Source of the DNA: an uncultured Candidatus Saccharibacteria bacterium
GTDB taxonomy: Bacteria; Patescibacteriota; Saccharimonadia; Saccharimonadales; Saccharimonadaceae
Length of the DNA stretch: 62,119 nucleotides
Direction of reading: 5' to 3'
Assembly (NCBI GenBank): GCA_947428935.1
Contig: CANENS010000006.1
Location: 1-62,119 of the forward strand
Part shown: positions 2,042-21,630 of the stretch, in pieces
How the letters are laid out: each line of letters starts with the position of its first letter
Numbering within the stretch: the first letter of the stretch is position 1
Position numbers and translations under genes: made by a program
Notes under the pieces: model-generated
What the model was told of the DNA's origin: nothing
The model's database searches: none
What the model saw: the letters and a program-made list of their open reading frames with translations, nothing else

Positions 2042-2403
2042 GGCGGCAAAGCTGTAAAGCCAAAGAGATAAAATGTTCTTTGGAACGTAATTATTTGAGG
2101 GACTAGAAATACGATTCTTTTCGAATTATTATTGCGGGTATTCATAATAACAACTTGATTCATGAATGGTATGAAATATTTGTACGGCTAGCAAGTATGT
2201 GGATCGTACAGATCATTTTAAATGGTTAGCTATGAGAACAGTTTTTACAAAATATTAAAGATGGAGCCCGTAAATCTGAGGCTGAGCTGTATATCTTATT
2301 TTCTTATTTTTTGACAGGAAGAATTACATATATGTCAGAATGATTATTGAATATGCAGTTTTAGACCGGATGAGAACATTCAGGGAGGAGGAAACGGAAA
2401 GTA
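2042..2403. other. gene-free stretch
   Basis: About 360 AT-rich bases without a credible ORF. The only clear signal is GGGAGGAGG at about 2383-2391, just ahead of the gene at 2404. No clear promoter or terminator was recognised. Confidence 0.5.
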
Positions 2404-3117: not shown

Positions 3118-3198
3118 GTTGTCTGGCATAATTTAATAGACGGAATAGAGACATATAGTTATCAAAAGGAAGGAATGTAGCAAGAATGGAGCAAAGAA

Positions 3199-6100: not shown

Positions 6101-6543
6101 ATTTTGTCATCTTTGCCGGGTTAAACCGGGCGCGGAGGCTGTTGGATGATGATAATGCATATGGTATGCCGCCTAAACAAATGTTCATGAATCTGGTCAA
6201 GAACGGACCCACTGCGGGAGTCAATTTTATCATATGGGCGAACGATCCGAACAGTTTCTGCTCATTTTACGGGGAATTACTTCCAGAGTTTGATTATAGG
6301 CTGGTTTATGACCTCAACGAAGATGAATATATGAAGATTATCACAAGTTCCAACATGGACACCAATTATGGGAACAATGTAATCTCATATAATCCAGATG
6401 AGGACAATAAAAAAGTCAGAGTATATAGTAAACCGCTACAAGAATGGTTGGATACGTTTATGGATAGGATTGAAAACAAGATGGCCCCTATGGGAGATAA
6501 CGCTTTTTATCCTGTAGAATCTGGAAACGGGAGGGATTTTTGA
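3199..6543 (+). CDS. FtsK/SpoIIIE-type ATPase, EssC/EccC-like
   Basis: A 1114-aa protein. Residues ~1-230 are charged and helical (coiled-coil type). The first ATPase domain has Walker A GTIGSGKST at ~567, Walker B VVIDE ending at 678 and the downstream segment GIHVILASQTLP, all typical of the FtsK/SpoIIIE/EccC family. A second ATPase-like region (~850-1080) has a degenerate P-loop (GKDNIRAS), as in the non-hydrolysing domains of EssC/EccC. No membrane helix is obvious, unlike classical EssC, so membrane attachment would need partners such as the YARHG protein or the protein at 6822. The likely role is powering export of the helical-domain toxin encoded at 11,544. FHA and kinase functions, fused or linked in known type VII systems, are separate genes here. 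Confidence 0.88.
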   Translation: MDDKNTKVGEQEIINAYNNMEMLPVHLHRCAKKYSEAAMAETECHRTVAESAKNVFEDKKASLEKQRKDMYDVADSAKRIISERLEGLWTEFQYASERYQNTFYTYIDKNKNRRIPFGGWFDQVIDEINKKEAQDEKEFSERYGHLVEQENRIYAQKIHEADHIYESQLAEETVAYNNTLDTENAESEARMKQTFDLARDTVIGLQPELQREMYKMLQANIPEILDYEPADTMPPAIEVGYINIDLDGWEGELLGSQPVIKLIKETYAYALADDQGKCVLRLPLGRAFSSNRFNKLILHDDVSRDSALEYMRALEMRLFMSIPCGKLRTTMIDPIDSSSNFSMFAPLGDDDERIISTRIWCDKKSIKEQLGLLIGQIEHVHQDCLRNEFTDIVEYNKYVGKNAEPFQVLFVADFPQHFDQEAEEMLEKIVRSGPKCGIFTFIVSRSGGSYADDHRILQDMEIIEIKNDTMFYHYKGLTHRISPAVLPSKNEISKIIATLRNGIKTSDRIIINFDEIADTLIQHKEKWFLFSDTNGLDIPIGLEGASRTVQIHLGGEQVTQHHALVSGTIGSGKSTLLHTIIMSALLKYSPEDLQMYLLDFKRGVEFKIYADSKLPNFKVISLDTEPEFGLSVLRFLEEQQAERGRRFRDGNCDNIERYNDTVGLSSDKIPRLMVVIDEFHEMFADPDSEITKQCGQLLEQVIREGRAFGIHVILASQTLPDNLSNIYGQILNRIALQSTASSAQYILDADNPALHTLVDVDSGMGVFNDGGGNKNANHLFRVAYFKEGEQKKILHQIRTLQAGLSYNVGAEKPRLLLSSIQDDDENPLNSFVKYGILPGQMELGCPLYLGEEIAMVDNFLIKLTARESQNLLILGKDNIRASLLYGFSVISILFYAFRMEAAGISMGDGPIITFFDFEEQGMSERSIKLSELSTHLPEKIRIFGKDSLMDGIDILEREYREEDPERRHFVIFAGLNRARRLLDDDNAYGMPPKQMFMNLVKNGPTAGVNFIIWANDPNSFCSFYGELLPEFDYRLVYDLNEDEYMKIITSSNMDTNYGNNVISYNPDEDNKKVRVYSKPLQEWLDTFMDRIENKMAPMGDNAFYPVESGNGRDF

Positions 6544-6560
6544 TCTTTAGTGATAGGAAA

Positions 6561-6827
6561 GAGATTTAGTGTGAAAGAAAGTAAATTAAGTCAAAATGTG
6601 AAATAGAAAAAAAGCTCACACCGTAAACCTAAATTAAGAGAGTTCCCACCTTGATAAAAGAGGCGCACCTGTACACCAACAACAAATGGGTGGGTGCATC
6701 TGACACTGATGTCGGGAATGCCTTATAAAATCAAATTTATTGTAACACGAAAACTTGAAGGTGTGAATCACTTTCATCACTATTTGTGCCGCCGACCAAA
6801 GGCGGCGGAATGGAGATCTTTATGGAA
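6561..6827 (+). repeat. 267-bp perfect direct repeat, copy 1 (gene leader)
   Basis: Identical base for base to 14,626-14,892. It begins 18 nt after the FtsK-like stop codon and ends six bases into the next gene, so it supplies that gene's leader, ribosome binding site and start codon. Inside it are an 11-codon ORF starting at GTG, a second short frame of about 28 codons, and a GC-rich hairpin next to the start. It looks like a duplicated regulatory cassette. Confidence 0.95.
6788..6806 (+). promoter_or_regulatory. leader hairpin abutting the ribosome binding site
   Basis: GCCGCC, a 7-nt loop and GGCGGC form a strong 6-bp GC stem. It is directly followed by GGAATGGAG and the ATG at 6822. A stem this close to the ribosome binding site may modulate translation. 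The same hairpin recurs at 14,853-14,871. Confidence 0.45.
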
Positions 6828-7346
6828 GATGTTCTGAATATGGATAAAGAGATGGAAAATCTGTCAAAAGACCTGACAGATATCCGTTTTTATGGGCAGA
6901 GATTAGCTCAAATAAGTAGCCAGGTTGATGAGATAATTTCTATCCATAAAACGAATATAGCAGTCGTTTTAGTCACAATCGCGTCAAGTTTTTCTGCATG
7001 TGCGGGCATGTTTACTTCTGTCCGGAAAATACATCATCCAAAAGTAAATTTGGAATCTTTTAGTATGGGTACGGATTTGCTGCCGTATCTGGCTTTATTT
7101 AGCTTGTGTTTTATGATTCTGTTTTGGGGATGTAAAAATAAATACGGAGATGTGATCAGTGCTTTGATCAATCTGGTTGCTATTTTGCTAGCCGTACTTT
7201 ATATTTATGGTTTTGCGGGTTACTATAGCTGCGGCGGTTCGATTTTTGCTATATTGGTTAGCTGGATACATGTAATTTTTCGCAGTTATAAACTTCGGAA
7301 AAAAGTTTGGAATATTTCTATTACACAAGCAGGAGAGCAAGTATGA
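6822..7346 (+). CDS. small membrane protein, four predicted helices
   Basis: A 174-aa protein. A short soluble N-terminus is followed by four hydrophobic segments at about residues 45-68, 85-104, 112-134 and 140-160 and a basic C-terminal end. I recognise no family. The ATG at 6822 is chosen because GGAG lies ~7 nt upstream; GTG 6786 and ATG 6810 are in frame but fall within the hairpin region. The stop codon overlaps the next start (ATGA). It is a candidate membrane platform for the ATPases of this island (inference from position). Confidence 0.75.
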   Translation: MEDVLNMDKEMENLSKDLTDIRFYGQRLAQISSQVDEIISIHKTNIAVVLVTIASSFSACAGMFTSVRKIHHPKVNLESFSMGTDLLPYLALFSLCFMILFWGCKNKYGDVISALINLVAILLAVLYIYGFAGYYSCGGSIFAILVSWIHVIFRSYKLRKKVWNISITQAGEQV

Positions 7347-7825
7347 AAGCAGAAGAAAAGAGATTATTGGAATTTAATGACATACGGTTACTCTATGAGA
7401 GATTCCAACCTACCCCCAGTATAGATCTAAACAGGAGTAGGATGCAGATACCTGCATTGAAAGTGCAGGAATATGACGACTTTTGGAGCCGTGCACTGAG
7501 ATTGGCTGTTGAGGGCCGGGAAGATGCGATCAGTAAGATACGTGCTGAAATTGCCCTCTCTAATCTTTCATGTGTTTCCCAAAAATGGTGGGATTTCGTC
7601 TTGTCATTTTCCCAGGGCGCACCGCCGGAAGAATTGGAGCAGTATGAGGAAGAAGATAAAAACCCTTTGATAAAGGTGGATCCTGGTTGTATTTGCGCCG
7701 CAATTGGCCGGATGGCTGTCCCCGCGGCAGCCTGGGAGAGGAAAAGACGTCGCATGGAGATAAAAGAGCTGGAAAAATTACAGGATCAGGCAGGGGAACG
7801 ACACCAGGAAAAAGAGTTTGCATAA
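7343..7825 (+). CDS. hypothetical protein of the export island
   Basis: A 160-aa soluble protein of unknown family. The start ATG at 7343 overlaps the previous stop by four bases and is preceded by AGGAGAG, indicating translational coupling. The C-terminal third is strongly charged (Arg/Lys/Glu) and probably helical. It lies in a tight cluster with the membrane protein, zinc-ribbon protein and kinase, so it is probably part of the same complex. Confidence 0.7.
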   Translation: MKAEEKRLLEFNDIRLLYERFQPTPSIDLNRSRMQIPALKVQEYDDFWSRALRLAVEGREDAISKIRAEIALSNLSCVSQKWWDFVLSFSQGAPPEELEQYEEEDKNPLIKVDPGCICAAIGRMAVPAAAWERKRRRMEIKELEKLQDQAGERHQEKEFA

Positions 7826-7856
7826 GAACATATAGAAAGCGTAGAGGTGGAATGGC

Positions 7857-8873
7857 ATGACAAGGCAGTCTGGATATTTTCTACAGGCTCTTTGGGAAAC
7901 GGGTGCGGGGAAAGAAAAGGTGCTGGCATTGGGGAAGGCGTCCATATGTTATGAAATACATAAATCATTAGAAGGTGTCCAGCATCCGGAAACCGTATTC
8001 GTCTCAGAGCCTTCAAAAACGGCTTACAAAGAAATATGCCTTTTAGAAGAAAGAATACAGAAGGCAGAACAGCCTTATCAACTGGCAGACATATCAGCCG
8101 ATCTTCAACAATTGATCGGCAGGATCCAGGCAATGCAGATTACGACTGTACAGTCATTGACTTCTCCATTTGGATCATCCCTGCAAGATATCCATATTAT
8201 TGTCCGCCAGCTTTATGGACTAGCCTTAACAAAGCTAAAGGAGCAGGCAGAATACCAACTGTATCGGATTCTGCTATTGGATGGTGCTTTAGGGATAGAT
8301 AAGGATCCTTATCCTAAAAACGGCAGTGTAAAAGAATGGATTACGTACTATAAATACACATTGTATCCCAGAATAGAACAGCTGGATGACCGAGTGCTGG
8401 ATGCACGCTGGGCGTATGAGCGAGAGCGGGTGTCTATCAACAGAGTACTAAGGATTGAGCAATTTATCTCTGTAGTGCCCAAGCAAGAAGAACTCTGTCT
8501 GGCATTAGGAAGCTCTGCGATCGGCACAGGAGATACAGGCAAACTGAGGATATATGGACGGGGATGCCTGACGAATATAACTCCGCATGAGATACTAGAT
8601 TGTTTTGAAAATGATCATCATAAAAATATTTCTATGATAGAGGATTATTCTGCCATTTCCGATGAAAATGCACCCCCTGGAGATAATCTGGAAAAATTGC
8701 TGCCTCAGCAAAAATATATTGTTTTTCCTGAAGAATATTTTCAGATGATCAACCAATATATGTTGGCCAAAACTTTTTACCAACGGATAAAGCTGGGGAA
8801 TTGTCTCTTGTGTGGCACACCGCTCCATCACCATCTGTGCCCGAATTGTGAGGGAGGGTCATGGATCATTTAA
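7857..8873 (+). CDS. hypothetical protein with C-terminal zinc ribbon
   Basis: A 338-aa protein, mostly helical, ending in a zinc ribbon with cysteines at 316, 319, 328 and 331. The start ATG 7857 follows GAGGTGG by 6 nt. The gene overlaps the kinase gene by 13 bp. Zinc ribbons recur in this island (also at 2404 and 10,559). I do not recognise the main domain. Close coupling to the kinase suggests a substrate or adaptor role (inference). Confidence 0.75.
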   Translation: MTRQSGYFLQALWETGAGKEKVLALGKASICYEIHKSLEGVQHPETVFVSEPSKTAYKEICLLEERIQKAEQPYQLADISADLQQLIGRIQAMQITTVQSLTSPFGSSLQDIHIIVRQLYGLALTKLKEQAEYQLYRILLLDGALGIDKDPYPKNGSVKEWITYYKYTLYPRIEQLDDRVLDARWAYERERVSINRVLRIEQFISVVPKQEELCLALGSSAIGTGDTGKLRIYGRGCLTNITPHEILDCFENDHHKNISMIEDYSAISDENAPPGDNLEKLLPQQKYIVFPEEYFQMINQYMLAKTFYQRIKLGNCLLCGTPLHHHLCPNCEGGSWII

Positions 8874-10432
8874 ATGTCAGATTGAAAGAAAGATTCATAT
8901 CTGAAGAAACAATCCCCGCCCCCATAGATGCGGAGACAGGAACAATCCCCACCGTATGTATGGATGCTGAAAACCAAAGAAAGCTCTCTTGGTTTAGTGT
9001 AGGGGTAGAAATAGATGGCTATAAACTTATTTCGTTGATGTCGCTCACATCTAGTTCTGAATTATGGTTTGCAGAAAATATGTATGGAATGCGGTGTGTG
9101 GTGAAAATAGCCAGAAGGCAGCCGGACATCGGATTATTCTATCAGATCAGACTGCTCGGCTGCAAGAGCCTGGCGGAACCTATAGACTATGGCATCCAGG
9201 ATGGAAACTGGTTTGAGGTGTATCCATATTATAGAAACGGTTCCGTGAAGGGACCAGTGCCCGAAGAGCATATCAGGCTCAAGGTGCTCCCGGGGATCAT
9301 CAACGCACTTGAATCCCTGCATGGTGCGGGAATCGTCCATAACGACATAAAACCAGAGAATATTTTCTGGAGTGATGATGGGAAATCCGTTATACTAGGG
9401 GATTTTGGCTACGCGGGGAAAATAGATGCACGTCCAGAGGGGTTTACGCCTACTTATGCAGCACCGGAGATTTTGTTGAACGGTATCAGCGGACGGGCGG
9501 CAGATTGGTTGTCTGTTGGGTTGACCCTTGCGGCACTGGCTGAGGGAGAGCCGCTTTTAAAGAAGAAGAGCGTCGGGCAGATCTTAAGGTCTTGGGAAAG
9601 AGGAATCTGTTTTACAGAGGGTTCTCTGCAGTTTCAGAGGCTCATAAATGGGTTGATACAAAGTGATCCTAAAAAACGCCTGGGTCTCAATGCGGCAAAA
9701 GGCTGGTGCAGGGGTTCTGTTTTTGGCGGAGAGGAACGGAGGCTGATAAGGAAAAGGGAAGCTGCACCATCTATTACGGTGAGATTTGATGATCCGCCCT
9801 GGACGGCTATGGATATCGCAGGGTTGTTAAAAGGGATCGAGTCTCATTGGGAGTATGCGGTATTCCTGTTCAGCCAGGAGCGTCTAGACGGATTCCTATC
9901 ACAATTTGACAAAAAATGGAAAGCAGTGTGCCAAGGATATAGGAAGTTGCCATCGATGGAGGATGCTCTATTCCGGCTGACATTGGATCTGTCCGCTGGA
10001 GAGGTCTTTGTTTGGAGAGGAAAAACATATCATCAGCTTTTGGACATGGAAAAAACATGGGAGGAAGGCGGCTCATGCGAAAAAGATGTCTTGACTTTCT
10101 TGAAGTGCGGCTTGGCCTGTATTTACCTGAAGAAAAAAAATGCTGATAGGGAACAGGTCGAATTTGCGGAAAGGTTGCAGGTTGCCAGCCGAATAACCCC
10201 TATAGAAGCTTGCGGCCAGTTCTTCCAGGTTTTAAGAGGGGACGGTGGATTCCAATGGGAGGGGGCAGAGTTTTTCAGCCTAGCAGATCTGGTCGACTGG
10301 CTGGCATGCAGGGTAGAAACGTTGGATGAGGACATTGAATGTCTTTTTCAAAGTAAAAGTTTTGCAGCATGGCTGGCGTGTCAGGGTCTGGATGACCTTT
10401 TAGACGATATCAAAAAGAAATGCGGAGTATGA
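8861..10432 (+). CDS. serine/threonine protein kinase-like protein
   Basis: A 523-aa protein whose residues ~45-270 carry a eukaryotic-type kinase fold. The VAIK-like lysine is K82 (CVVKIA). The catalytic loop is HNDIKPEN with D162, where Asn replaces the usual Arg of HRD. DFG is at 181-183, followed by an APE-like AAPEI. All key catalytic residues are present, so it is probably active. There is no clear glycine-rich loop. The ~250-residue C-terminal region is not recognised and there is no membrane segment. An FHA protein, which would read phosphothreonine, follows directly, giving a kinase-FHA module next to FtsK-like export genes. In type VII systems EssB has a kinase-like fold, but this gene is closer to true kinases. 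Confidence 0.85.
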   Translation: MDHLNVRLKERFISEETIPAPIDAETGTIPTVCMDAENQRKLSWFSVGVEIDGYKLISLMSLTSSSELWFAENMYGMRCVVKIARRQPDIGLFYQIRLLGCKSLAEPIDYGIQDGNWFEVYPYYRNGSVKGPVPEEHIRLKVLPGIINALESLHGAGIVHNDIKPENIFWSDDGKSVILGDFGYAGKIDARPEGFTPTYAAPEILLNGISGRAADWLSVGLTLAALAEGEPLLKKKSVGQILRSWERGICFTEGSLQFQRLINGLIQSDPKKRLGLNAAKGWCRGSVFGGEERRLIRKREAAPSITVRFDDPPWTAMDIAGLLKGIESHWEYAVFLFSQERLDGFLSQFDKKWKAVCQGYRKLPSMEDALFRLTLDLSAGEVFVWRGKTYHQLLDMEKTWEEGGSCEKDVLTFLKCGLACIYLKKKNADREQVEFAERLQVASRITPIEACGQFFQVLRGDGGFQWEGAEFFSLADLVDWLACRVETLDEDIECLFQSKSFAAWLACQGLDDLLDDIKKKCGV

Positions 10433-10558
10433 GCAGCTACCGATATGGATTGCAACGAAAGTAGAAAAACAAGTACTGGATGAGAAGGATACACATTAAA
10501 GTGCTGAGAGGAAAAAGAGACCACTGAACGAAAGTACAGGAGTATCAGGGAGATAGAT

Positions 10559-11354
10559 ATGGAAGAATGTGGGCATCAGAAGATCATATGTAGTTACGGC
10601 CATTCCAGTGGGACGTTTCTTTTTCATGAGCCATTGCCGAAAAAGTGTCCCCAATGTGGCCAGCTTTATGATGAGCAAGAACACAGGCCGGTTTTGTGCT
10701 TTGAGGATGGCTCCGTCCCCCAGCCTAACGGAGGAGAAACTGGTAAAACAGAAATAAAAGAAGAATTTTCAGAACATCAAAATACGGCTCCTATTCCCAC
10801 TGGATCATCAGGTATGATAAAACCGATAAAAAGCCGATCATCCCTACAGAGGCGTGCAGGGCATGCTCCAAGGAAAACTGAGCCTGACAGTAGGATCCTG
10901 GGCCATACAGGGGCTAAAAGGCAAACCCCATCTGTAAATGGATCTATCCAGAGTCTAGGAAAAATGTCAGCGGCACAGAGAGAGCAGCCAACATCCCGCC
11001 GAAATCCCGCAGTCAGCTCAGGAATCGACAGAGGGTTGGATCATAAACAGTTAGATCTTATTACGGGTGGTACGCATATAGATATCCCCAAAGAAGGCGC
11101 TTTTTTAGGAAGAGATGGATTGGGGCGAGAAAGTTTCTGCCTCAATCCTTTGGTCAGTCGGAAACATGTGTTTGTACAGAACGGTCAATCAGGTATCCTG
11201 TGTACAAGATGCGGGGTCTTTGAATGGCACATTTGTCGATGATGGGGATGGGCGCAGGAGACTGATGCCAGATGAAACGGCTACATTGAAGCAGGGGGAT
11301 AGGATATGGATCGCAGACCAGATATTAGTAGTAGGTTTACAAGAGGATGGATGA
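10559..11354 (+). pseudogene. zinc-ribbon/FHA-domain protein, interrupted by a frameshift
   Basis: The first frame (10,559-11,242) encodes an N-terminal zinc ribbon (C4, C11, C30, C33), a low-complexity polar linker, and the start of an FHA domain with GRDG at ~183 and SRKH at 200-203. The rest of the FHA domain (DAGSLNGTFV and a closing GDRIWIADQ segment) is in another frame, ending at 11,354. The frame must shift by +1 near base 11,201 (one extra T after CTG) to rebuild the domain. As read, the protein ends inside the FHA fold and would lack the phosphopeptide-binding SLNGT strand. It may be a real disruption, a sequencing error, or programmed frameshifting. The start ATG 10,559 follows GGGAGATAGAT. 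Confidence 0.75.
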
Positions 11355-11543
11355 AATGAAAAGAGGAACCGGATCATCTTTCAACAGTGGTATTTGTTAA
11401 TAAATGGATTTGAGGTAGGAAAAGTGGATAATGGCGTTGATACTGGAACCTGTAAAAGTGATCGGACGTACGATGACCGGATTTTTATGGTAAACAGGGT
11501 ATCTGTCAAGTAGGACAAATGAGAAAGTTAAGGAGAATAGTGA
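11355..11543. other. short gap before toxin gene
   Basis: 189 bp with only tiny frames. One begins at an ATG near 11,432 (MALILEPVKVIG...) and stops after 20 codons; it may be the remnant of a small gene. AGGAG at 11,531-11,535 serves the following toxin gene. Confidence 0.35.
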
Positions 11544-12779
11544 ATGGGGGCTCCATATGAAGATGAATGGAATCAGATCAGGCAGATTGCTTCCCAGGTA
11601 AATACGGCCCGCGAAGAAGCCAGCACACTGTATGAAAGGCATCTGGCCCGTCAGGCACAGGGATTAGCTGACAGGTACAGAAGATCCGCCAAAGAATACC
11701 AGCAAAAAGCGGACCGCATCTCGTCGGCACAGGGCGGGTTCCAGCAGTTATCCGGATTCCGATTTGGAGCGGATACGGCAGCTGCAGGAAGTAAGTTGGC
11801 AGGGCAGAGAGTAACTCATTATGAGGACCATGTATCTATGCTCAATGAATTAGCAGCAGCGGCAGAATTAGCAGTAGAAGGGATCGACTTTTATAATGGG
11901 TCGGGAAGCATTGCGGATAAGGGCATTTTTCAAAGACCCAACAACGGACAGTCGTCAAGAAGCCCTTCGACAAATAAAACAGATGATGGTCAATTGGACA
12001 TGAAGGACGCGGAAAGGAATTACGGATATCAAGTCAAAAGTGATATTAACAAAGGTATTTTTTCTGCATTAGGCATGAGAGATCTTGATCATACTGATGG
12101 GACGCCTGATTTGTCTGTTGTATCCCATGAAATAGTTGATATTGGTGACACTGAGAAGAGTTTTACTGCGAGTGCGGATGTGGCGTTGGCCGCAAAATGG
12201 GGAATGCCTATTTCTGATGTAATACAATATAGAAACGAAAACGGACTGTGCTGGTCTGCAACAGAAAATGATAAAAAAGCATGTTTGATACCCCAGAGCA
12301 TAAACGATGAATATAACGCGGATCCTTGTTATAAATATTGTCCTGTCACAAATGGTGAATGGCTTAGTGAACGAGGAAATTCAAGATGGATACCTGTATC
12401 AGACTATGTTCCATCAAAATCGAATCCAGAAAAGAAGGCTTGGGGTCAAATTTTGGAAGAATATGGGATTAGTGGTATCATGTTCAATGAGGGGTGTCCG
12501 GATTTCTCTGAAATCAGTAGAGGAACTGTAGAAATAAAATCATTCACTGATGAACGATATGAAAATTTTAAGAGAGCAAATATAGAAATGGCAAAACTGC
12601 ATAAGTGTACAGAAAGTGAGGTTAAGAGATGGCGCCAAGAAAATAAGTATACATGGCACGAATGTGATGATATGAAAACATTACAAAAAGTACCAAGTAT
12701 AATCCATAGCAATATTCCTCATAGTGGAGGTATCCATGAAGTAAAAGAAAGGAGCAAAAATGAACGATTCAATATTTAA
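11544..12779 (+). CDS. polymorphic toxin: helical export domain + WHH/HNH-type nuclease
   Basis: A 411-aa protein. Residues ~1-125 are alpha-helical and rich in Ala, Gln and Glu, like the N-terminal domains of type VII-exported (WXG/LXG-like) proteins, though no exact WXG is seen. A polar linker follows (~125-155), then a middle region. The C-terminal ~50 residues carry W371-H372-E373, then MKTLQKVP, then IHSNIPHSGG (H388, H393), the pattern of WHH-type nuclease toxins of the HNH/Endo VII superfamily. The start ATG 11,544 has AGGAG 8 nt upstream. The overlapping gene at 12,760 is the expected immunity gene. The protein is likely delivered by the FtsK-like machinery upstream (inference). Confidence 0.82.
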   Translation: MGAPYEDEWNQIRQIASQVNTAREEASTLYERHLARQAQGLADRYRRSAKEYQQKADRISSAQGGFQQLSGFRFGADTAAAGSKLAGQRVTHYEDHVSMLNELAAAAELAVEGIDFYNGSGSIADKGIFQRPNNGQSSRSPSTNKTDDGQLDMKDAERNYGYQVKSDINKGIFSALGMRDLDHTDGTPDLSVVSHEIVDIGDTEKSFTASADVALAAKWGMPISDVIQYRNENGLCWSATENDKKACLIPQSINDEYNADPCYKYCPVTNGEWLSERGNSRWIPVSDYVPSKSNPEKKAWGQILEEYGISGIMFNEGCPDFSEISRGTVEIKSFTDERYENFKRANIEMAKLHKCTESEVKRWRQENKYTWHECDDMKTLQKVPSIIHSNIPHSGGIHEVKERSKNERFNI

Positions 12780-13143
12780 AGATTTTGTTTTAGATACAGG
12801 TATATGTTGGAAAACCAACGCAACCATTACTTATTTTGGGCGTAATTTTCCTATTAAAATCTGTCTCGATATTGATTCTGAAAATAATAATATTATTACC
12901 GATGAGCAAAAAACAGTCTATCGCAATTATCTCAAAAATCAAGAAAGCATCTCTGCTACGATCGAACGCCTTCTTCAGGATTTCACAAAAGACGCCGCGG
13001 TTCGTTTTACGCCAAGAACACTTCTTTTTCAACAAGATGGCTCATATGCATTGCTCTGCGATGATGAGGAGGACTGGGATGATGGCGTTGCGGTTTGCAT
13101 CTCTCCGGAAGAAAAAATTGAATTTCAGGATGATTATCTATAA
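12760..13143 (+). CDS. immunity protein for the WHH-type toxin (DUF6985-like)
   Basis: A 127-aa acidic cytoplasmic protein whose start lies inside the end of the toxin gene (20-bp overlap), preceded by AGGAG. The pattern TPRTLLFQQDG...LL.D.EEDWDDGVAVCISP...QDDYL resembles DUF6985-type immunity proteins found beside nuclease toxins. It would bind and neutralise the toxin's C-terminal domain in the producer. Position, size and acidity are the main evidence; the family name is from memory. Confidence 0.75.
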   Translation: MNDSIFKDFVLDTGICWKTNATITYFGRNFPIKICLDIDSENNNIITDEQKTVYRNYLKNQESISATIERLLQDFTKDAAVRFTPRTLLFQQDGSYALLCDDEEDWDDGVAVCISPEEKIEFQDDYL

Positions 13144-13578
13144 ATCAAGATGTAGCGCAAATGAATTGTTGCCTACAAAATCCTGGGAAATTATCGATGA
13201 GCAATGTAGCGCACAGAGCATGAAACGCTACTCGCAAAGGTTGAACAGGTTATTGGTAGCAAGATCAGAAAATGTAATGGCAACATTGTGACCAAATATA
13301 AATAGTAGGATAACAGGGCTATAAAAAATATATTACGTCAGTGAGTGTTCATAACGGATAGATGCGCTGTATTGGTGAGAACGAATAAGACAGGATGAAA
13401 GAGGCATTTGGCAATCAGAGGATTGCCAAACAGTGTACCGAGCAAGGGCGTTTGCGATATCATTTTTATGAATGGATAATAATTTCATTTTAGGGATGAC
13501 ATTAAACTACCAACTGAATTTGGCGGTTTTTTGATAAATGCATATAAAACAAGCACATGACAGAGGAGGAACTATGAT
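13144..13578 (+). other. gap with gene remnants and a hairpin
   Basis: About 435 bp without an intact gene. Near 13,219-13,309 a short frame reads EHETLLAKVEQVIG...VTKYK and ends at TAG; it looks like the tail of a lost gene, possibly another toxin or immunity gene. A perfect 10-bp hairpin follows at 13,407-13,430. GAGGAGG at 13,563 serves the next gene. Confidence 0.4.
13407..13430 (+). terminator. hairpin after the toxin-immunity pair
   Basis: TTTGGCAATC, a 4-nt loop and GATTGCCAAA form a perfect 10-bp stem. No T-run follows, so it may be a weak or factor-dependent terminator, or an element end. Confidence 0.4.
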
Positions 13579-13989
13579 ATGGGCAAAATGAAAGCAGAAA
13601 ATATTGAATTTATAACGAGTAAAAACTTAACTGAAATTGTAGGCTTGTTACGACAGGCAGCAGATGAACTGAAGGCTACAGTAGATAAAATTGGAGATGC
13701 CGACCCATTAGCGAAGTTTGAAGCAAAAGCTGATATCGAGGTTGTCTTATGGGGAAATATACGAGGGTTTGAGGCGTGCAGACCTGGACGGAGTGGCGGA
13801 GCTGGGCGAGATACTTGGGTAGTTCAAGTATATGTCACGGAGATTGAGGAGGGATGTCATGTAGAGCTTATTGCTATTGGCGAAGGTTTTTCCCTTTTTG
13901 GTGATCGTGTCGGAACTTATTATTGCGGAAGGCCTAGGACAGCGGCCAGTATCGAACGTAGAGATAAGATTGCAGCCGTATTGAGATGA
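13579..13989 (+). CDS. hypothetical protein
   Basis: A 136-aa soluble protein. The first ~55 residues are helical; the rest looks like a beta-rich domain with a Gly/Arg-rich loop (RPGRSGGAGRD). No family recognised. The start ATG has GAGGAGG 9 nt upstream; the ATG five bases earlier closes after five codons. It lies between the toxin-immunity pair and the coiled-coil gene and could be another exported or accessory component (inference). Confidence 0.65.
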   Translation: MGKMKAENIEFITSKNLTEIVGLLRQAADELKATVDKIGDADPLAKFEAKADIEVVLWGNIRGFEACRPGRSGGAGRDTWVVQVYVTEIEEGCHVELIAIGEGFSLFGDRVGTYYCGRPRTAASIERRDKIAAVLR

Positions 13990-14069
13990 ACCGTAAATTG
14001 TATTTTTGTAGTTCTGATATAGATATTTTAAGGAATGAAAATATTATTTGAGTTAGAAAGGTGAGGATT

Positions 14070-14555
14070 ATGGGCTCGATATTTGAGAAAGTAAAGAAAA
14101 ATGTGGAACAAGCGGAGCAGTTAGAATGGCGCGGCCTGGAACGGGCTGAGCAAGATGCCGCTGAAATACGTGAAATAAAATCGATTATCGGGGGCATGGA
14201 GCGGGATGTAGATGAAGATATCCTTCAATCAATAGAGGCTATAAAGGAAGCGGCAAAAAACGAAGCCTCTGATCATATGCGCGGTGAGGTACATAATACT
14301 TTGGAAGAAGGATATCGTGTTGCAGATGAGGCTATAAAGGAAGGGGCGCAGCAGAGAGAAAAAAGCAGAAGAGCGGCGTCTAACTTTTCTTCTATTAGCT
14401 CAAGGTCTGAATATGGCAGGAGTACCGCTGAATCGGCCTCGCAGAAAGCCGAAGACTTTTCAAGGCAGTTTGAACAGCAGGAAAAAGAGGCTAGAAATAA
14501 TATGGAAACAACAGAAAAAGAATTCAATCGTATGTTAGCAGAGATTATGTCATGA
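14070..14555 (+). CDS. helical coiled-coil protein of the island
   Basis: A 161-aa protein that is almost entirely charged or polar helix (Glu, Lys, Arg, Ala, Ser), with no signal peptide. ATG 14,070 is chosen because GAAAGGTGAGG lies just upstream; the GTG nine bases earlier is less likely. Size and all-helical make-up resemble small partner or substrate proteins of type VII-like secretion, but there is no WXG motif, so function is unknown. Confidence 0.7.
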   Translation: MGSIFEKVKKNVEQAEQLEWRGLERAEQDAAEIREIKSIIGGMERDVDEDILQSIEAIKEAAKNEASDHMRGEVHNTLEEGYRVADEAIKEGAQQREKSRRAASNFSSISSRSEYGRSTAESASQKAEDFSRQFEQQEKEARNNMETTEKEFNRMLAEIMS

Positions 14556-14581
14556 TATCTTTGATCTTTTAGTATCTGATC

Positions 14582-14601
14582 CCCCGCAGCTTGCTGCGGG
14601 G
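14582..14601 (+). terminator. strong GC hairpin after the coiled-coil gene
   Basis: CCCCGCAGC, TT and GCTGCGGGG form a perfect 9-bp stem 27 nt after the stop codon at 14,555, followed by TCGTTCATT. It probably ends the first part of the island's transcription. Confidence 0.6.
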
Positions 14602-14625
14602 TCGTTCATTGTAAATACAGAGGAG

Positions 14626-14892
14626 GAGATTTAGTGTGAAAGAAAGTAAATTAAGTCAAAATGTGAAATAGAAAAAAAGCTCACACCGTAAACCTAAATT
14701 AAGAGAGTTCCCACCTTGATAAAAGAGGCGCACCTGTACACCAACAACAAATGGGTGGGTGCATCTGACACTGATGTCGGGAATGCCTTATAAAATCAAA
14801 TTTATTGTAACACGAAAACTTGAAGGTGTGAATCACTTTCATCACTATTTGTGCCGCCGACCAAAGGCGGCGGAATGGAGATCTTTATGGAA
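14626..14892 (+). repeat. 267-bp perfect direct repeat, copy 2 (gene leader)
   Basis: Exact copy of 6561-6827, again ending six bases into a gene (14,887). Here the 11-codon ORF at GTG 14,636 has a strong AGGAGGAG ribosome binding site. The two copies bracket ~7.8 kb carrying the kinase, FHA, toxin and immunity genes. Recombination between them would delete that block and place the HerA-like ATPase gene directly behind the FtsK-like gene. Confidence 0.95.
14853..14871 (+). promoter_or_regulatory. leader hairpin, second copy
   Basis: Same GCCGCC/GGCGGC stem as at 6788-6806, immediately upstream of GGAATGGAG and the ATG at 14,887. Confidence 0.45.
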
Positions 14893-17625
14893 TATTGCTA
14901 TTATGAGTTAGATACTGCCCCAGATTTTTCTTTGGACAGATATTCTTCCCTTTCGGAAACAGGACCTTCCGGTGTCTTGACACAGCATCAATCATTCTGG
15001 AGGCAGTTAAATCAATGGGGAAAAATGTTCAATGGGGGCATCCATTTTATTTATCAGTTTGATGCGGGACAACCAGTTGGAAAAAGGATGAAGTTGATCA
15101 TACGTTTTGATGCTGCAGACCCAGAGGCAAAAACATCCATACAGCAGATCATGAAAGCATCCATCTTAGCGCCTTATTACGACCAGCTCAACTTAAAAAA
15201 AGAGGATCCTATCAGTAGCCAAGCCTTCGGATGGAAAGTCAATCTGATAAAAAAGGAAAGATTTATCCCTTCTTTATTTAATGAGAAAGAGGCTTTTTAT
15301 ATTGTCAGTGACTGGGAAATGAATCCCAATGCCCGGTTGTATTCCATGTTGAGAATCATGGCAGCTTCAGGTAGCAGTTGTGCATATTGTGTGGATATCT
15401 ATCCTGTAGATTATAACAATGCTCTGGAAAACGGCCTTCGGTTCATCTTGCCCCATCTGCGTGAACTTGATTCATTTAAGATAAAGACTGACTTATCTTC
15501 TGTTTCTGGTGGAGGGAAAGATGAAAACGCTAAAAAGGCATTGGACTTTTATGAAAACCTCACAGACAGCCTTGCGGTATCGCCGCATTTTCTGGTCAAC
15601 GTACAAGCATTCGGAAAGACAGAGACGGTGGCAAGACAGATCCTGGATGCAGCTGCTTCAGAAGCCCTTACGGGGGGAAACTATAGTCTTTATGGAGAAA
15701 AATCCGGAAGCAGTGTCTGTGATACTATCTCATCAGGATTCTCATATTGGAATGATCCAGAAGCTCCGGAAGGACTGGCGACCCTCCCGCATTTGATGAC
15801 TTTGGAAGAAATGGTGCCTTTCGCCGTCATGCCTGTCCTATATCCTGGGGAATCTATCGAAATGCCTAAAGAAACTGTCCCAGAGATACAGGACGGGATG
15901 TTCATTGGGAGGGACGGACAGGGACATGGCATATCCTTCCCGTGGGAAAATCTCTCAAAACATATTTTTCTTGCGGGTATGCCCGGCAGTGGGAAGACGA
16001 ATGCAATGATGTATCTGATTGCGGAGATACATCGGGAAGGGATACCTTTCCTGATGTTCGAGCCAGCAAAAAAAGAGTACCGATCGCTCGTCGTCCAGCC
16101 TGATATGGAAGATATATTCTTTTTTTCACCATGTGCTGGCAGCATGTTCCCAATCCATATCAATCCGTTTGAGTTTCCACATGGGATGAGGCTGTCAGAT
16201 CATATAAATAGGCTGCTGGATATTTTCAATGGCACGTTTTTGCTGGATCCCCCTATGCCGATGCTACTGGCAGAAGGCATCCAGATATGCTACGAAAAAT
16301 TATTATGGCTCCCAGGAATGGTGAACCAGGGAAATCTGAGATATCCAACGTTGAGTATGCTGTATCCTCAGATTGAGGAATTGATGGACAAATATCAATA
16401 TGCGGATGATGTACGGAACAATCTGCAATCCATTCTGCAAGTACGGATAGGCTCCCTGATGTCCCGTGAAATGGGGGATATCTTTGATGTAGGATGGTCG
16501 ACATTCCCTCCAGAACAGTGGCTCGAAAAGAGTGCGGTCATAGAATTGGCAGCTTTGGGGACGGCACCATCCAATTTTATGATATTGACATTGATGACAT
16601 CAATCAGGGAGTCTCTGGATATACAGATATACGAACCGGAAAAATATGAGCATCGGCCTAGGCATATGATCTTTTTAGAAGAAGCCCATAATCTGATCGC
16701 AAATACCAGCATCCAAAAACCTGGTGAAATAGATCCTAAAGTTTCTGCGACCGCATATATCACAAAAATGCTGGCAGAGGTGCGCGCCCTAGGAGAAGGT
16801 ATCGTTATAGCGGATCAGCTCCCGACTTCAATGGCTCCAGAAGTCATCAAAAACACTTCATTAAAATTCGGGTTACGCTTGACTTCTCAAGATGAACGGG
16901 AGCTATTGGGTGCGGCGATGTCCGCAGATATACTACAGCTAGAAAATATGGGGGTATTCATGCCAGGACATTGTCTGGTCAGCTATGAGGGATTATTAAA
17001 GCCTTTTGAGATACAGATCCCTGAGTATAAAAATGATGATGTTGTTAACGATGTCCAGATACTTAGAGAAAAGTTATGCGATCCGGTTTATCATCATAGT
17101 ATGCTGCAAAGCGTTAAGATCATGGAAATGAAATATACAGAAAAGAGGGACCACCTTAGGAGAAAAACGGTCCAATTCTATGACAAACTTGACAGGACTA
17201 GATCATATATAAAAAAATATGGTGAGGACCTGATACAGGAAGATTTAGGTGGGGCCTTGATAAGTCCAGTCATTGAAGAGTGGCATGAAATAAAATATAT
17301 GTATTCAGATCTGGTGGGCCAATGGCATCGATTGACACTAGATATAATGATGTATTCAGGGACAATCGTAATATGCAAATGGCTGATCATAAATTGGGAT
17401 GATATCTATTTTGATGATGAAAAATGGGACACAAACACAACACATGATGAATGTTATTGTATCATAGGTAAACTTTTAGACTCAATAAAAAAAGAATGGG
17501 GTACGCTGGAGAGGTACGGAAAAGCCTGCGGCCTGAAAGATGAAAATGGCCAGAAGGTGCGTTTTATGAAGCGGAAGGAAATAATAATGGCAGGGTGGAA
17601 AAATGTGAAAGACATTATCAAGTAA
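14887..17625 (+). CDS. HerA/DUF87-type ATPase (VirB4/HerA superfamily)
   Basis: A 912-aa protein. Walker A GMPGSGKT is at ~364-371, and a hydrophobic strand ending in FLEEAH (E598, E599) is the Walker B. The order and the YLIAEIHREGIPFLMFEP segment after the P-loop are typical of HerA/DUF87 ATPases, which pump DNA or protein. The N-terminal ~340 residues and C-terminal ~170 residues are not recognised. The start ATG 14,887 follows GGAG; GTG 14,851 is in frame but lies at the hairpin. It is a second motor in an island that already has an FtsK-like ATPase, so the two may act in one transport apparatus (inference). Confidence 0.88.
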   Translation: MEYCYYELDTAPDFSLDRYSSLSETGPSGVLTQHQSFWRQLNQWGKMFNGGIHFIYQFDAGQPVGKRMKLIIRFDAADPEAKTSIQQIMKASILAPYYDQLNLKKEDPISSQAFGWKVNLIKKERFIPSLFNEKEAFYIVSDWEMNPNARLYSMLRIMAASGSSCAYCVDIYPVDYNNALENGLRFILPHLRELDSFKIKTDLSSVSGGGKDENAKKALDFYENLTDSLAVSPHFLVNVQAFGKTETVARQILDAAASEALTGGNYSLYGEKSGSSVCDTISSGFSYWNDPEAPEGLATLPHLMTLEEMVPFAVMPVLYPGESIEMPKETVPEIQDGMFIGRDGQGHGISFPWENLSKHIFLAGMPGSGKTNAMMYLIAEIHREGIPFLMFEPAKKEYRSLVVQPDMEDIFFFSPCAGSMFPIHINPFEFPHGMRLSDHINRLLDIFNGTFLLDPPMPMLLAEGIQICYEKLLWLPGMVNQGNLRYPTLSMLYPQIEELMDKYQYADDVRNNLQSILQVRIGSLMSREMGDIFDVGWSTFPPEQWLEKSAVIELAALGTAPSNFMILTLMTSIRESLDIQIYEPEKYEHRPRHMIFLEEAHNLIANTSIQKPGEIDPKVSATAYITKMLAEVRALGEGIVIADQLPTSMAPEVIKNTSLKFGLRLTSQDERELLGAAMSADILQLENMGVFMPGHCLVSYEGLLKPFEIQIPEYKNDDVVNDVQILREKLCDPVYHHSMLQSVKIMEMKYTEKRDHLRRKTVQFYDKLDRTRSYIKKYGEDLIQEDLGGALISPVIEEWHEIKYMYSDLVGQWHRLTLDIMMYSGTIVICKWLIINWDDIYFDDEKWDTNTTHDECYCIIGKLLDSIKKEWGTLERYGKACGLKDENGQKVRFMKRKEIIMAGWKNVKDIIK

Positions 17626-18036
17626 ACAAAATATATTAAGTGATCTATTTTGGATTTATAATGATATATAATCTTGCTATCAGAAGTCCCGTTCTCTTGA
17701 TGGAAGGTTTTTCAGATTGCGGGAGTGTAAAATAAAGTGCGCAAACCCTTTGAACTGCCATGGCTGATCCTATTAGCCTGTAAAAGCTGAAACCCTTTCC
17801 TTGACTGGCTTCTGGCAGTTTGATTTAGGCAATCAAGCAGTTGTAATGAAAATTTTCAGACGGTTAAAATATACACTTTATTTGACATACCCCAGATTAC
17901 CATACCACGGTCAATAATCGTCGTATACGAATGTCTTAGGATATTGTATTCACAAAGATAATATAAAACATACATAAATATTGGAATCAACTATTCAGAT
18001 ATAGACACTTAAAGTTCTTTTTAGAAATATAACATT
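17626..18036. other. gene-free right edge of the island
   Basis: About 410 bp without a credible ORF. It holds an interrupted inverted repeat (AACTGCCA near 17,754 and TGGCAGTT near 17,814), possibly the remnant of an insertion sequence end. This is where ribosome-binding and codon style change, so the junction of transferred DNA, or an assembly join, may lie here. Confidence 0.4.
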
Positions 18037-18074
18037 TATCTCAGGCTCCCAGAACATTCTGGGAGCCTGAGATA
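18037..18074 (-). terminator. perfect 18-bp-arm palindrome, terminator of the 18,085 gene
   Basis: TATCTCAGGCTCCCAGAA pairs perfectly with its complement across a 2-nt centre. It lies 11 nt past the stop of the minus-strand gene and could also stop transcription coming from the island. It has no T-run. Confidence 0.7.
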
Positions 18075-18084
18075 GTTACAGATA

Positions 18085-18729
18085 TTACTTTTTATCAAAA
18101 ACCACCCGCACCTTAAAAGTCAGAAAATCATAGGTAAAATCAGCGTAGTAAGGGATTTCGTTATGTAAACCGTGCTGGAAAATGATTAAGTTATCGTCTT
18201 CCATCCAAGCCACATCATGACTTAAGGCTAACCCTCGGGAAAGATTATTGCTCTCCAGGACTGCAGAACCCTGTTCATAAACCAGGCGGAATTTTTGGGA
18301 AGGCTTCCGTGTCTGCAGGATAACGGCATCCATGAGCTTTACTGGATACATTTCTGGCAGGAAAAACAATGCAAAGATGCGATGAGCCTCAGCTGTATCC
18401 GTAGGAATACGACATGCTATGGAAGTATCTTTATTCATTGCGCCGATTCCGAGTGAACAGCTATGGATTCCCAATCTGATTCTGTAGACACCCTGATCTT
18501 CCACAATGAAGTATCTATCATAATACTGAGGGTTAATGAGCGTCGGATCTTTATCATCACCATCTGGAAAAACTTCAAAGTTGAGCGGCATCATCACTTC
18601 AACGCGTTCAACCATTGGCTTATCAAATAATCCGGCAACATAAGGCTCCTGTTTAGCCTCTTTAGTTTTCTTGGTTACATTAACATTCTGATTTTCATTG
18701 GCTTTTGTCTGTTTTGAATTTGATTTCAC
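18085..18729 (-). CDS. hypothetical protein, 214 aa
   Basis: Start is GTG at 18,729 with CGAGGA upstream. The first ~30 residues are a Lys/Asn/Gln-rich disordered tail; the rest looks like a compact beta-rich domain. No signal peptide, membrane helix or known motif. It stands alone between the island and the first clearly Saccharibacteria-like genes. Which side it belongs to is unclear; it has a ribosome binding site rather than a leaderless start. Confidence 0.7.
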   Translation of the reverse strand: MKSNSKQTKANENQNVNVTKKTKEAKQEPYVAGLFDKPMVERVEVMMPLNFEVFPDGDDKDPTLINPQYYDRYFIVEDQGVYRIRLGIHSCSLGIGAMNKDTSIACRIPTDTAEAHRIFALFFLPEMYPVKLMDAVILQTRKPSQKFRLVYEQGSAVLESNNLSRGLALSHDVAWMEDDNLIIFQHGLHNEIPYYADFTYDFLTFKVRVVFDKK

Positions 18730-19207
18730 AAGATATCCTCGCTTTCATTGAAATAATTATTCATTATCGACACATTTACAGCTACACTAGCCCACTGTCA
18801 AAGCAGGGGTTTACACAATCATAAGCCACCATCTCCTTTTTCTCGTTCCTGAAGGTAGGATATCAGGTTTTTAAGATTTTGTAGTTGGCGGTGGATTGGC
18901 AAATGGTTGTCAAACGCGTAGATTATTGACAATCTTATGAAATAGTGAGTATCGTATCCTGTCCTCGATATACTTTGTGGATTTTGAATCAGAAATGATG
19001 GGCAGTTTAACGCTCGGACATATCTTAAATCGTGTAAAACGAGTAAAATGAACTGATCTTCATGAACTTGTTTTGGAGCAAAGGTAAATCTTTTTATCAG
19101 GAGATTGGTGCAACGTGTAAAATCAAACCACTATTCTAGTCACCAAAACTATCAGGCTAATGCTATCTTTTTGTATATATTATCAGTATATTGTTCCCCA
19201 AACATCA
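18730..19207. other. gene-free stretch
   Basis: About 480 AT-rich bases upstream of the GTG at 18,729. It presumably holds that gene's minus-strand promoter, but I see no convincing -35/-10 pair, repeat or ORF. Confidence 0.4.
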
Positions 19208-19236
19208 AGAAACCCCTAGAAATACAGGGGGTTTCT
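19208..19236 (-). terminator. terminator behind cassette 1
   Basis: AGAAACCCC and GGGGTTTCT form a 9-bp stem, read on the minus strand after the cassette at 19,266-19,456. It was probably copied together with the 3' end of the parent surface-protein gene. Confidence 0.6.
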
Positions 19237-19265
19237 AACATCGACTTTGTATCAAACGTGTAGTC

Positions 19266-19456
19266 TCTAGCTAGGCAGCGGAGGGGGAAGCCGACCCAGC
19301 GACTGTAGCCGTTGGACGGGCTGACGCCAGACGCATTGAAGCTGAGGTCGTATGCTCGAGTGACATCAGAAGAATTACTCCGTGACGACCATTCATAACC
19401 GATGACACCAGAGTACCACAAACGACTGCTATTGATATTGACGTATCCGCTGCGAA
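19266..19456 (-). pseudogene. silent surface-protein cassette 1 (C-terminal YWSS/FPLRC-type domain)
   Basis: A 191-bp fragment whose frame (starting RSGYVNINSS) contains GYEWSSRSNSS, AYDLSFNASGV and FPLRCLAR, the pattern of C-terminal DUF1566/Fib_succ_major-like domains. Only this last ~63-residue part is present, with no start codon, signal peptide or promoter of its own, and its upstream end abuts the ABC exporter promoter. The reading frame is intact. It begins at the same TTCGCAGCGG and ends at the same CCGCTGCCTAGCTAGA as the copies at 31,271, 46,761 and 48,225, while the interior differs in many codons. Confidence 0.75.
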
Positions 19457-19534
19457 TAAAGAAATTTTTTGTACATACACAAATAATGTAATCAAGGGTT
19501 GTGGGTAACAAAAAAACGTGATAGAATGGCCACT

Positions 19535-20344
19535 ATGAAGCCAGTAATAGAGGTAAAAGATTTAGTAAAAGTATACGGCAAGAGGTCTACGGCCTTTACG
19601 GCTTTGGACCATATAAACTTAACCATAAATGAAGGCGAGACAGTTGCGATCGTAGGCAAATCCGGTTCAGGTAAGTCAACCTTAATGCACTTGATTGCAC
19701 TGCTAGATCGCCCGACTGCCGGTACGATCAAAATTAACGGTCTTGATTCTACGAAATTAAAGAATCGTGAACTTAATCAGATGCGCAATAAAAACTTCGG
19801 TTTCGTTTTTCAGCAGTTTTTCATGAATGCGAACGATAGTGTACTGGAAAATGTTTTGCTTCCGCTTAAAATTGCGGGGGGTCGTCGCAAAACACGGAGA
19901 AAATTAGCAACTTCCGCCCTAAAAACTGTAGGGCTGGAAGAAAGATTGAAATTTAAAGCTAATGATCTTTCCGGAGGGCAGAAGCAACGGGTTTGTATTG
20001 CTAGGGCAATCGTCAATCATCCGAAAATTATCTTTGCGGATGAACCGACCGGAAATTTGGATTCGGCTACCGGTGAAAAAGTAACCGATTTGTTATTTGG
20101 TCTTAATAAAGAAAAAGGCGTTACTCTGATTATTGTGACTCACGATGAAGATTTGGCTAAACTATGTGATCGACAGATCAGAATTGCCGACGGTGAGTTG
20201 GTTGAAGATGGTGTGAATAAAAAACGTCGCGGACGTCCGCCTAAGGCCAGTCAAGTAAAAAATGAGGTCGTCACAAAGACAAAGCGAAAGTCGACTAAAA
20301 AAACAGAAAAAAGTGATGTTGATAAAAAGGAGATTGAGACATGA
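19535..20344 (+). CDS. ABC transporter ATP-binding protein (MacB/LolD-type)
   Basis: A 269-aa ATPase with Walker A GKSGSGKST (41-49), signature LSGGQKQR, Walker B FADEPTGNLD and H-loop VTHDED, all intact. This is the subtype that pairs with FtsX-like permeases to export or extract lipoproteins, peptides or drugs. The permease gene overlaps its end by 4 bp. The start is set at ATG 19,535 because a TAGAAT -10 box ends 8 nt before it, making it leaderless; ATG 19,526 is possible. The C-terminal ~40 residues are very basic with KRRGRPPK, an AT-hook-like motif not needed for ABC function. Confidence 0.93.
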   Translation: MKPVIEVKDLVKVYGKRSTAFTALDHINLTINEGETVAIVGKSGSGKSTLMHLIALLDRPTAGTIKINGLDSTKLKNRELNQMRNKNFGFVFQQFFMNANDSVLENVLLPLKIAGGRRKTRRKLATSALKTVGLEERLKFKANDLSGGQKQRVCIARAIVNHPKIIFADEPTGNLDSATGEKVTDLLFGLNKEKGVTLIIVTHDEDLAKLCDRQIRIADGELVEDGVNKKRRGRPPKASQVKNEVVTKTKRKSTKKTEKSDVDKKEIET

Positions 20345-21630
20345 AATTAGGCGATATTATCCGAACTGCAAATCAAAACTTGCTGCGAAATAAACTCCGG
20401 ACTTTTTTGACTATTTTAGCGATTTTTGTAGGTAGTTTTACCATTATTTTGAATGCCGCAATCAATACTGGCGTCAACTCTTTTATTGACGAACAGACGG
20501 CCAGCCTCGGCGGTGAAGACTATATTATGATTATGAGCGAAGGTTCAGCTAGTGCTATGAGTTCTATGATGCAAAGTAATGAGCCTCTTGAATATAATCC
20601 CGATCAAACTATCACGGCTATGGACAGTGAACAGCTAGAAAAATTAAAAGAAATTGACGGGATCGATGCGGAAAACCTCTATATTGCCAGGCAAATACCG
20701 GTTGAATATATCACGAAGGATAAAAATAGCAAAAAGTATAATGTCACGGTCGGCGCAATGCCACCAGGTGATTTTCAAATTGCTACCACTGTCGGCCGTT
20801 TGCCTAATAGGGAAACGGAGAAATATGAGATTACATTGCAAGCCGGTTATCCTCAAGTGCTTGGCTTCTCATCCGATGAAGAGGCGGTCGGCGAAACCGT
20901 AACCTTAGTGGTATTAGATCCAATTACAAAAAAACCAGCCGAATACAAAGCAAAAGTTGTCGGCGTGCAATCGCAAGGCGTAGTCGCGGTGAACGGAGCG
21001 GTGGTTAGTCCCGCCCTGGAAGACGCCATGTATGCCGATTTGACAGCCAATTATCCACCGGAACAAAAAGAAATGGTCTATTCCGTACAAACGCGCTTTG
21101 ATGATCAGAAATACAGTGAGCAAGAAATCAAAGATAAGCTGAACGAAAACGGTTTTGTAGGCCTAACCATCTCAGATATGATGGGTATGATCCGGACCTT
21201 CTTTGACGTGATCATGGTTGTATTCATGATATTTGGCGGTATTGCGCTACTAGCTGCGGCCATCGGCATTATCAACACGCTATTCATGTCGGTCGAAGAA
21301 CGTACTCGCGAAATCGGCCTTGATAAAGCTTTAGGGCTCTCATCCGGCAAGATATTCTTGATTTTTTCGATTGAGGCTATTTCATTAGGTTTTTGGGGGT
21401 CTCTGTTTGGTGTGGCGATGGCAATGGTGTTAGGCTATGTTGCCGATAATCTAGTGCATATGCCCGGAGCCTTTTTGGAGGCATTTCCTACTTTTCACTT
21501 AGTAAAATTCACGCCTTGGAATATTTTACCGATTATTCTAATCGTCGTGATTATTGCTTTTGTGGCAGGCACTCTTCCGGCCTGGAAAGCAGCTCACAAA
21601 AATCCGATTGAAGCCTTGCGCTATGAATAG
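20341..21630 (+). CDS. FtsX-like ABC permease (MacB family)
   Basis: A 429-aa permease. It has an N-terminal membrane helix (~18-40), a large extracytoplasmic domain (~45-280), and three C-terminal helices (~285-315, ~335-365, ~390-415) ending in PAWKAAHKNPIEALRYE, the hallmark of the MacB/FtsX family. It overlaps the ATPase gene (ATGA), so they form one exporter. The substrate cannot be read from sequence; surface peptides or lipoproteins are plausible. Confidence 0.93.
   Translation: MKLGDIIRTANQNLLRNKLRTFLTILAIFVGSFTIILNAAINTGVNSFIDEQTASLGGEDYIMIMSEGSASAMSSMMQSNEPLEYNPDQTITAMDSEQLEKLKEIDGIDAENLYIARQIPVEYITKDKNSKKYNVTVGAMPPGDFQIATTVGRLPNRETEKYEITLQAGYPQVLGFSSDEEAVGETVTLVVLDPITKKPAEYKAKVVGVQSQGVVAVNGAVVSPALEDAMYADLTANYPPEQKEMVYSVQTRFDDQKYSEQEIKDKLNENGFVGLTISDMMGMIRTFFDVIMVVFMIFGGIALLAAAIGIINTLFMSVEERTREIGLDKALGLSSGKIFLIFSIEAISLGFWGSLFGVAMAMVLGYVADNLVHMPGAFLEAFPTFHLVKFTPWNILPIILIVVIIAFVAGTLPAWKAAHKNPIEALRYE

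Follow-up and report, generated by a model that had tools for sequence, protein, structure and literature searches.

Gene content of the block

The window, meaning the whole stretch of DNA analysed, is one complete contig (C6, 62,119 bp) of an assembly (G000) that comprises 1.10 Mb in 27 contigs and is 96% complete and 0.2% contaminated. The genus has small genomes (0.3–1.2 Mb), which fits an assignment to Saccharibacteria. The left end of the window carries a promoter and a recombination site that point at a block of genes (173–17625), all of them on the + strand. The first open reading frame encodes a 70-aa cysteine-rich protein (173–385), zinc-ribbon-like to judge by eye from its cysteine pattern, and is followed by a 398-aa protein that matches no family (845–2041) and a YARHG-domain protein (2404–3117). 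Among 118 genomes of the genus, this is the only one in which YARHG exceeds the cut-off. An FtsK/SpoIIIE-type ATPase (3199–6543) comes next and is distantly EccC/EssC-like, scoring far below the model cut-offs (TIGR03928, EssC equivalog, 86 bits versus 778; EccCa, 108 versus 509). The middle of the block encodes a putative membrane protein (6786–7346), a 338-aa protein without a family match (7857–8873), a protein-kinase-domain protein (8861–10432), and a 227-aa protein without a Pfam match (10559–11242), in which zinc-ribbon and FHA-like features were recognised by eye.

Further along lie a putative secreted toxin with a C-terminal WHH/colicin-DNase nuclease domain (11544–12779) and a possible immunity gene (12760–13143; weak DUF6985 match, below the cut-off). 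The last cargo gene encodes a HerA/DUF87-like ATPase (14875–17625) with a weak Pfam match to coupling proteins, whose nearest relatives are found in Lachnospiraceae and other gut Firmicutes. A small helical protein (14061–14555) directly precedes it, as is the case, by position, in a Lachnospiraceae locus (L081). Among the block proteins scanned, Pfam matched neither the WXG100/LXG substrates nor the EssB, EsaA, and EssA partners of a Firmicutes type VII secretion system (T7SSb), and no relaxase or transfer genes of an integrative/conjugative element. A 267-bp perfect direct repeat (6561–6827 and 14626–14892) covers the starts of two different cargo genes, those of the putative membrane protein and of the last ATPase.

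A compositional border at 18.0 kb

The sequence-only reading had described an abrupt change of gene style to the right of this block, and the change is real, with foreign style on the left and host style on the right. As that reading had claimed, codon use differs sharply: arginine is encoded by AGA or AGG in 56% of cases left of 17.6 kb and in 13% to the right, and isoleucine by ATA in 38% versus 10%. The tetranucleotide profile, which it had proposed to examine across the junction, agrees. Of the seven 5-kb windows that deviate most in the 1.09 Mb examined, six fall within positions 1–20 kb, and no other DNA in the assembly is as atypical as 1–17.6 kb. The reported contrast in Shine–Dalgarno use is present but weak (6 of 13 genes on the left versus 5 of 23 on the right).

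The position of the border, given earlier as 17,626–19,500, has to be corrected to ~18,034, where a palindrome marks the start of homology to two further contigs of this genome; the segment 18,034–19,460 belongs to the host side. Between ~18,034 and ~19,455 the window shares 85% identity with C4:69729-71158, a homology that ends left of 18,034, and positions 18038–18740 are about 78–80% identical to C21:40-742. The junction itself (17626–18033) is non-coding, and no exact repeat over 16 bp starts within it. The palindrome is as exact as had been reported, with 18-bp arms at 18037–18054 and 18057–18074 (38 bp in all), and constitutes a perfect, terminator-like hairpin (18037–18074, − strand) behind the host-side border gene ORF214 (18085–18729, − strand). 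ORF214 is present in three copies in the genome, with protein sequences that differ by 11–23%; the hairpin recurs behind the copies on C4 and C21, each time with a different stem sequence. The C-terminal half of ORF214 resembles ~430-aa proteins found in ~40 genomes of the genus.

Two other elements noted earlier at the junction also exist. The inverted-repeat remnant is imperfect (17721–17739 and 17874–17892, 84%), and the repeat designated cassette 1 is a ~190-bp element (19267–19457, − strand) on the host side with ~50 copies genome-wide. Copies of this cassette are 70–86% identical and scattered over the genome, and some read as C-terminal fragments ending RWxGFPLRC. The first normal chromosomal genes encode a host ABC transporter ATPase and an FtsX-like permease (19535–21630, + strand), and ordinary chromosomal genes such as those for ProS, LysS, MurJ, RadA, and RseP lie to the right of the border. 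The border is best read as the place where a repeated module, present here in one of its copies, ends on its downstream (3′) side, rather than as an assembly join or a mere horizontal island.

A repeated module with its own recombinase

In the module, ORF214 and its hairpin are followed by the cargo, whose genes point back at ORF214, and then by site A, a short segment, site B, and a gene for a ~190-aa tyrosine recombinase that points away. The segment between the two sites measures 113–195 bp. Modules occur on three contigs of this genome (C6, C4, and C21). On C4 and C21, other foreign-style cargo lies between two matching ends whose order and orientation are the same. The window contains only site A; the contig stops before it reaches site B and the recombinase, which are seen in the C4 copy. 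We infer through C4 that the window's own copy would be linked to a recombinase with intact catalytic residues. The recombinase matches Pfam PF00589, and the catalytic Arg, Lys, His-x-x-Arg, His, and Tyr are kept in all copies, as read on the alignment. At C4 (69673–78090), the recombinase is followed by what appears to be the next cargo, a foreign-style gene at the contig end, and C21 (51–9048) carries two recombinase–cargo units in tandem.

Outside this genome, the recombinase is confined to a minority of relatives. It was found in 9 of 174 genomes of the genus searched, this one included (the copy in G034 is broken), and in none of 156 other genera sampled in the order at E 1e-12. G238 shows the complete module order, with its ORF214-like gene recognised by eye. 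Modules of G001, G012, G014, G024, and G238 adjoin a recurrent element that encodes an MT-A70 methyltransferase and a replication-relaxation protein (named by eye), together with ~430-aa secreted proteins whose C-terminus resembles ORF214. Codon use is native-like in the recombinases, intermediate in ORF214, and foreign in most of the cargo, a difference which suggests that recombinase and cargo do not share one history.

Paired sites and a promoter between them

Each site has the structure GTAAC-N4-X6-N4-GTTAC with few arm mismatches. Upstream of all 11 intact recombinase genes there is exactly one site pair in which the X6 of one site is the reverse complement of that of the other. The spacers differ from one module to another and are TAGATA, TAACAA, TGGTTA, TTATAG, TGTATC, TTTGGA, TGTTTA, TATCAA, TAGTGA, TAATGA, and TACTGA. 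This rule was set on eight modules, and the three obtained afterwards (G238, G240, and G241) all obey it. Site pairs are absent from 5,700 shuffled sequences and occur in 3 of 3,000 random pieces of the genome; at a total arm mismatch of ≤3, the 1.09 Mb examined contain only three pairs, each of which lies at one of the three recombinases. Inversion by a tyrosine recombinase requires an equal overlap in inverted orientation.

In every case (11 of 11), sites A and B are inverted, lie 137–219 bp apart, and have a promoter between them. A promoter of the form TTGN3-N17-TAN3T ends 1–3 bp from one core in the 11 modules and in the window (12 of 12), compared with 0.18% of random positions having such a motif at the allowed offsets. 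In the window and ten of the modules it points toward the cargo; in the remaining one (G024-C36) it points toward the recombinase. The closest relative of that module by tree, G238 (100/99), has its promoter toward the cargo, so both orientations are seen across genomes. In the window, the promoter TTGAAG-N17-TAAAAT (8–36, + strand) faces the cargo and is followed by the site A core, GTAGC-AGAG-TATCTA-TTGT-GTTAC (39–62, + strand). The contig ends inside the invertible segment, and its terminal 55 bp (1–55, + strand) are identical to C4:76121-76175, which marks a branch of the assembly graph at k=55. A hairpin common to the leaders of the recombinase genes spans the ribosome site and has a TATACT-like box in the loop (for example C4:76312-76395). 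Support for this hairpin is modest, with compensatory changes in 4 of 10 pairs.

Together, these features make it very probable that positions 1–18.0 kb are one copy of a phase-variation module, in which a recombinase-flipped promoter controls acquired Firmicutes-type secretion and surface genes. Points that weigh against this reading are the distance of the donor, the small share of genus genomes with the recombinase, the low scores of EssC-type models, and the end of the window's contig ahead of its own site B and recombinase. The horizontally acquired cluster, with its EssC/FtsK-like and HerA-like ATPases, kinase, YARHG protein, and nuclease toxin with a putative immunity gene, would form a single forward block behind a promoter carried in the short invertible segment. 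Site A beside the cargo and site B beside the recombinase would flank this segment, and the dedicated ~190-aa tyrosine recombinase, encoded just past B, would recombine A with B through the identical 6-bp spacer, thereby flipping it. In the ON state, the promoter would drive the cargo; in the OFF state, it would read toward the recombinase, and the leader hairpin would then hide the ribosome site from read-through transcripts, thus possibly insulating the recombinase gene. The border noticed by the sequence-only reading would be the point where the cargo ends, at the ORF214 hairpin. Such a module would presumably invert in live cells and switch expression of a cluster that may itself secrete the toxin.

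Probable origin of the cargo and possible origin of the switch

A transferred Firmicutes-type secretion island, as had been suggested from gene style, is supported by the affinities of the cargo. The HerA-like ATPase shares 36–40% identity over most of its length with proteins of gut Lachnospiraceae, other Clostridia, Erysipelotrichaceae, an Olsenella, and a Synergistaceae metagenome-assembled genome (MAG). It groups with these proteins in the tree (100/100), next to Lachnospiraceae RUI498 (91/81), whose locus L081 also holds homologs of the FtsK-like protein and the kinase. This level of identity indicates a distant donor. The earlier suggestion to look for the island in other Saccharibacteria genomes bears on the same point, as relatives from the genus lack the HerA-like ATPase. 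Native homologs were considered and rejected for both ATPases: the 59 relatives searched offer only P-loop similarity to the HerA-like protein, and candidates for the FtsK-like protein within the genus mostly share just the ATPase domain and are ordinary FtsK-size proteins, G012 excepted. Single-protein searches of genome contigs and viral contigs returned no relatives, while a profile search found some.

The cargo of other modules is also Firmicutes-type. It comprises SLH with a ricin-type lectin and InlB-like repeats in G014, a BspA-type LRR with lipase and Big_2 on C21, Big_2 in G240, and an FtsK/SpoIIIE protein homologous to that of the window in G012.

The nearest recombinases found outside come from Lachnospiraceae-type DNA (43–47% identity), two of them beside flagellin genes. 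One of these loci (MT837916.1; L235, 4723–5538) has a GTAAC-N14-GTTAC pair with a reverse-complementary spacer that flanks the recombinase gene. The switch may thus derive from Firmicutes flagellin loci and have been rebuilt with both sites upstream. The exact site A pattern is absent from viral contigs, and none of eight Firmicutes relatives has an upstream switch with the module geometry. At another locus in Lachnospiraceae-type DNA (L229, 3838–4640), a homologous recombinase adjacent to flagellin has a similar inverted site pair with a matching spacer.

Alternative explanations

The window end and C4 share both the spacer TAGATA and the terminal 55-mer, which reflects either a recent duplication of the module or one segment that serves two cargos. 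On a broader view, an epibiotic Patescibacterium would use the modules as a portable control cassette to capture secretion and surface genes from gut Firmicutes and place each under stochastic ON/OFF control, and same-spacer modules, such as those of the window and C4, would exchange cargos, much as an integron does, to alter surface or weapons. We regard this as improbable. A related reading, in which a single recombinase segment belongs jointly to the cargos of the window and C4 and recombination between same-spacer modules swaps them, is improbable as well. It agrees with an assembly graph that, through TAGATA and the 55 identical bases, joins both cargos to one segment, and with the absence from the assembly of a second copy of that recombinase. 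However, a recent duplication collapsed by the assembler gives an identical graph, recombination in trans would bring large rearrangements, and most modules have private spacers.

It is quite unlikely that the block is an ordinary mobile island, for which the tyrosine recombinase acted as the inserting integrase and the paired sites are binding sites rather than a switch. Tyrosine recombinases are often integrases, relatives of this one occur on plasmids and phages, and the C21 modules stand in tandem. Against this, a search for shared direct repeats (E 0.05) found no direct att repeats between the block ends, the sites of all 11 modules lie 137–219 bp apart in inverted orientation with matched spacers around a promoter, and one module has its segment flipped.

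The weakest alternative, offered by the sequence-only reading as a trivial explanation, is a chimeric contig in which a Firmicutes fragment was misjoined to a host contig at 17.6–18.0 kb; despite the foreign composition of the block, its place at a contig end, and a short-read style source assembly with k=55, we give it almost no weight. Of 48 contig ends checked, 33 share exactly 55 bp with some other part of the assembly and none shares more, as is typical of a de Bruijn assembly with k=55. A misjoin would then need an exact repeat of ~55 bp at the junction. The longest found is 16 bp, with no longer exact repeat starting at 17301–18030 in a comparison confined to this genome, and a chimera is therefore disfavoured. 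Misjoining at the palindrome was rejected likewise, because its 38 bp fall short of k and no longer exact repeat starts at 17.3–18.03 kb. A contaminating Firmicutes contig was rejected because both block ends match modules of the same genome with order and orientation kept: beyond the homology at 18.0 kb, window positions 1–100 are 92% identical to C4:76075-76175. Foreign cargo also sits in a like setting on the two further contigs and in independent genomes, and three separate misjoins beside three diverged ORF214 copies are not credible. A contig end together with a sharp compositional step can thus be biology, not misassembly.

Comparison with known systems

Patescibacteria live on other bacteria, and their tiny genomes are generally assumed to encode little regulation. 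We found no report of invertible-promoter switches in this phylum in the open-access literature searched. If the phase-variation reading is true, these genomes would hold a set of self-contained inversion switches. Each would have a recombinase and a spacer of its own and would govern a different surface or secretion cargo of Firmicutes type, and these epibionts would bet-hedge with their surface and obtain it from other phyla.

The arrangement resembles the fim switch of E. coli, in which a small (~200 aa) tyrosine recombinase (FimB/FimE) lies beside a short promoter segment between inverted sites, and NCBIfam models of tyrosine-type DNA invertases match the module recombinase weakly. Compared by features, the modules differ from fim in sites, spacer diversity, and host phylum, and also in their Firmicutes-type secretion and surface cargo and in giving each module its own recombinase and private spacer. 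In the RecV switches of the Firmicute Clostridioides difficile (cwpV and flg), inversion by a tyrosine recombinase likewise makes surface and secretion genes variable in their expression. RecV is reported to act on a flagellar switch distant from its own gene (PMC2784873, PMC5386303), whereas each module here has its own recombinase.

For the cargo, the closest counterpart is the Lachnospiraceae RUI498 locus L081, where a 36% identical HerA-like ATPase, a 25% identical FtsK-like protein, and a kinase share one locus; that genome, however, has no such recombinase at E 1e-8, and the gene order is only partly shared. For the switch, the closest are the recombinases of Lachnospiraceae-type flagellin loci (UBA7060 and MT837916.1), each 43% identical, of which MT837916.1 has the same kind of site pair and spacer. 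There the pair flanks the recombinase gene, whereas here both sites lie upstream of it and enclose the promoter of the cargo.
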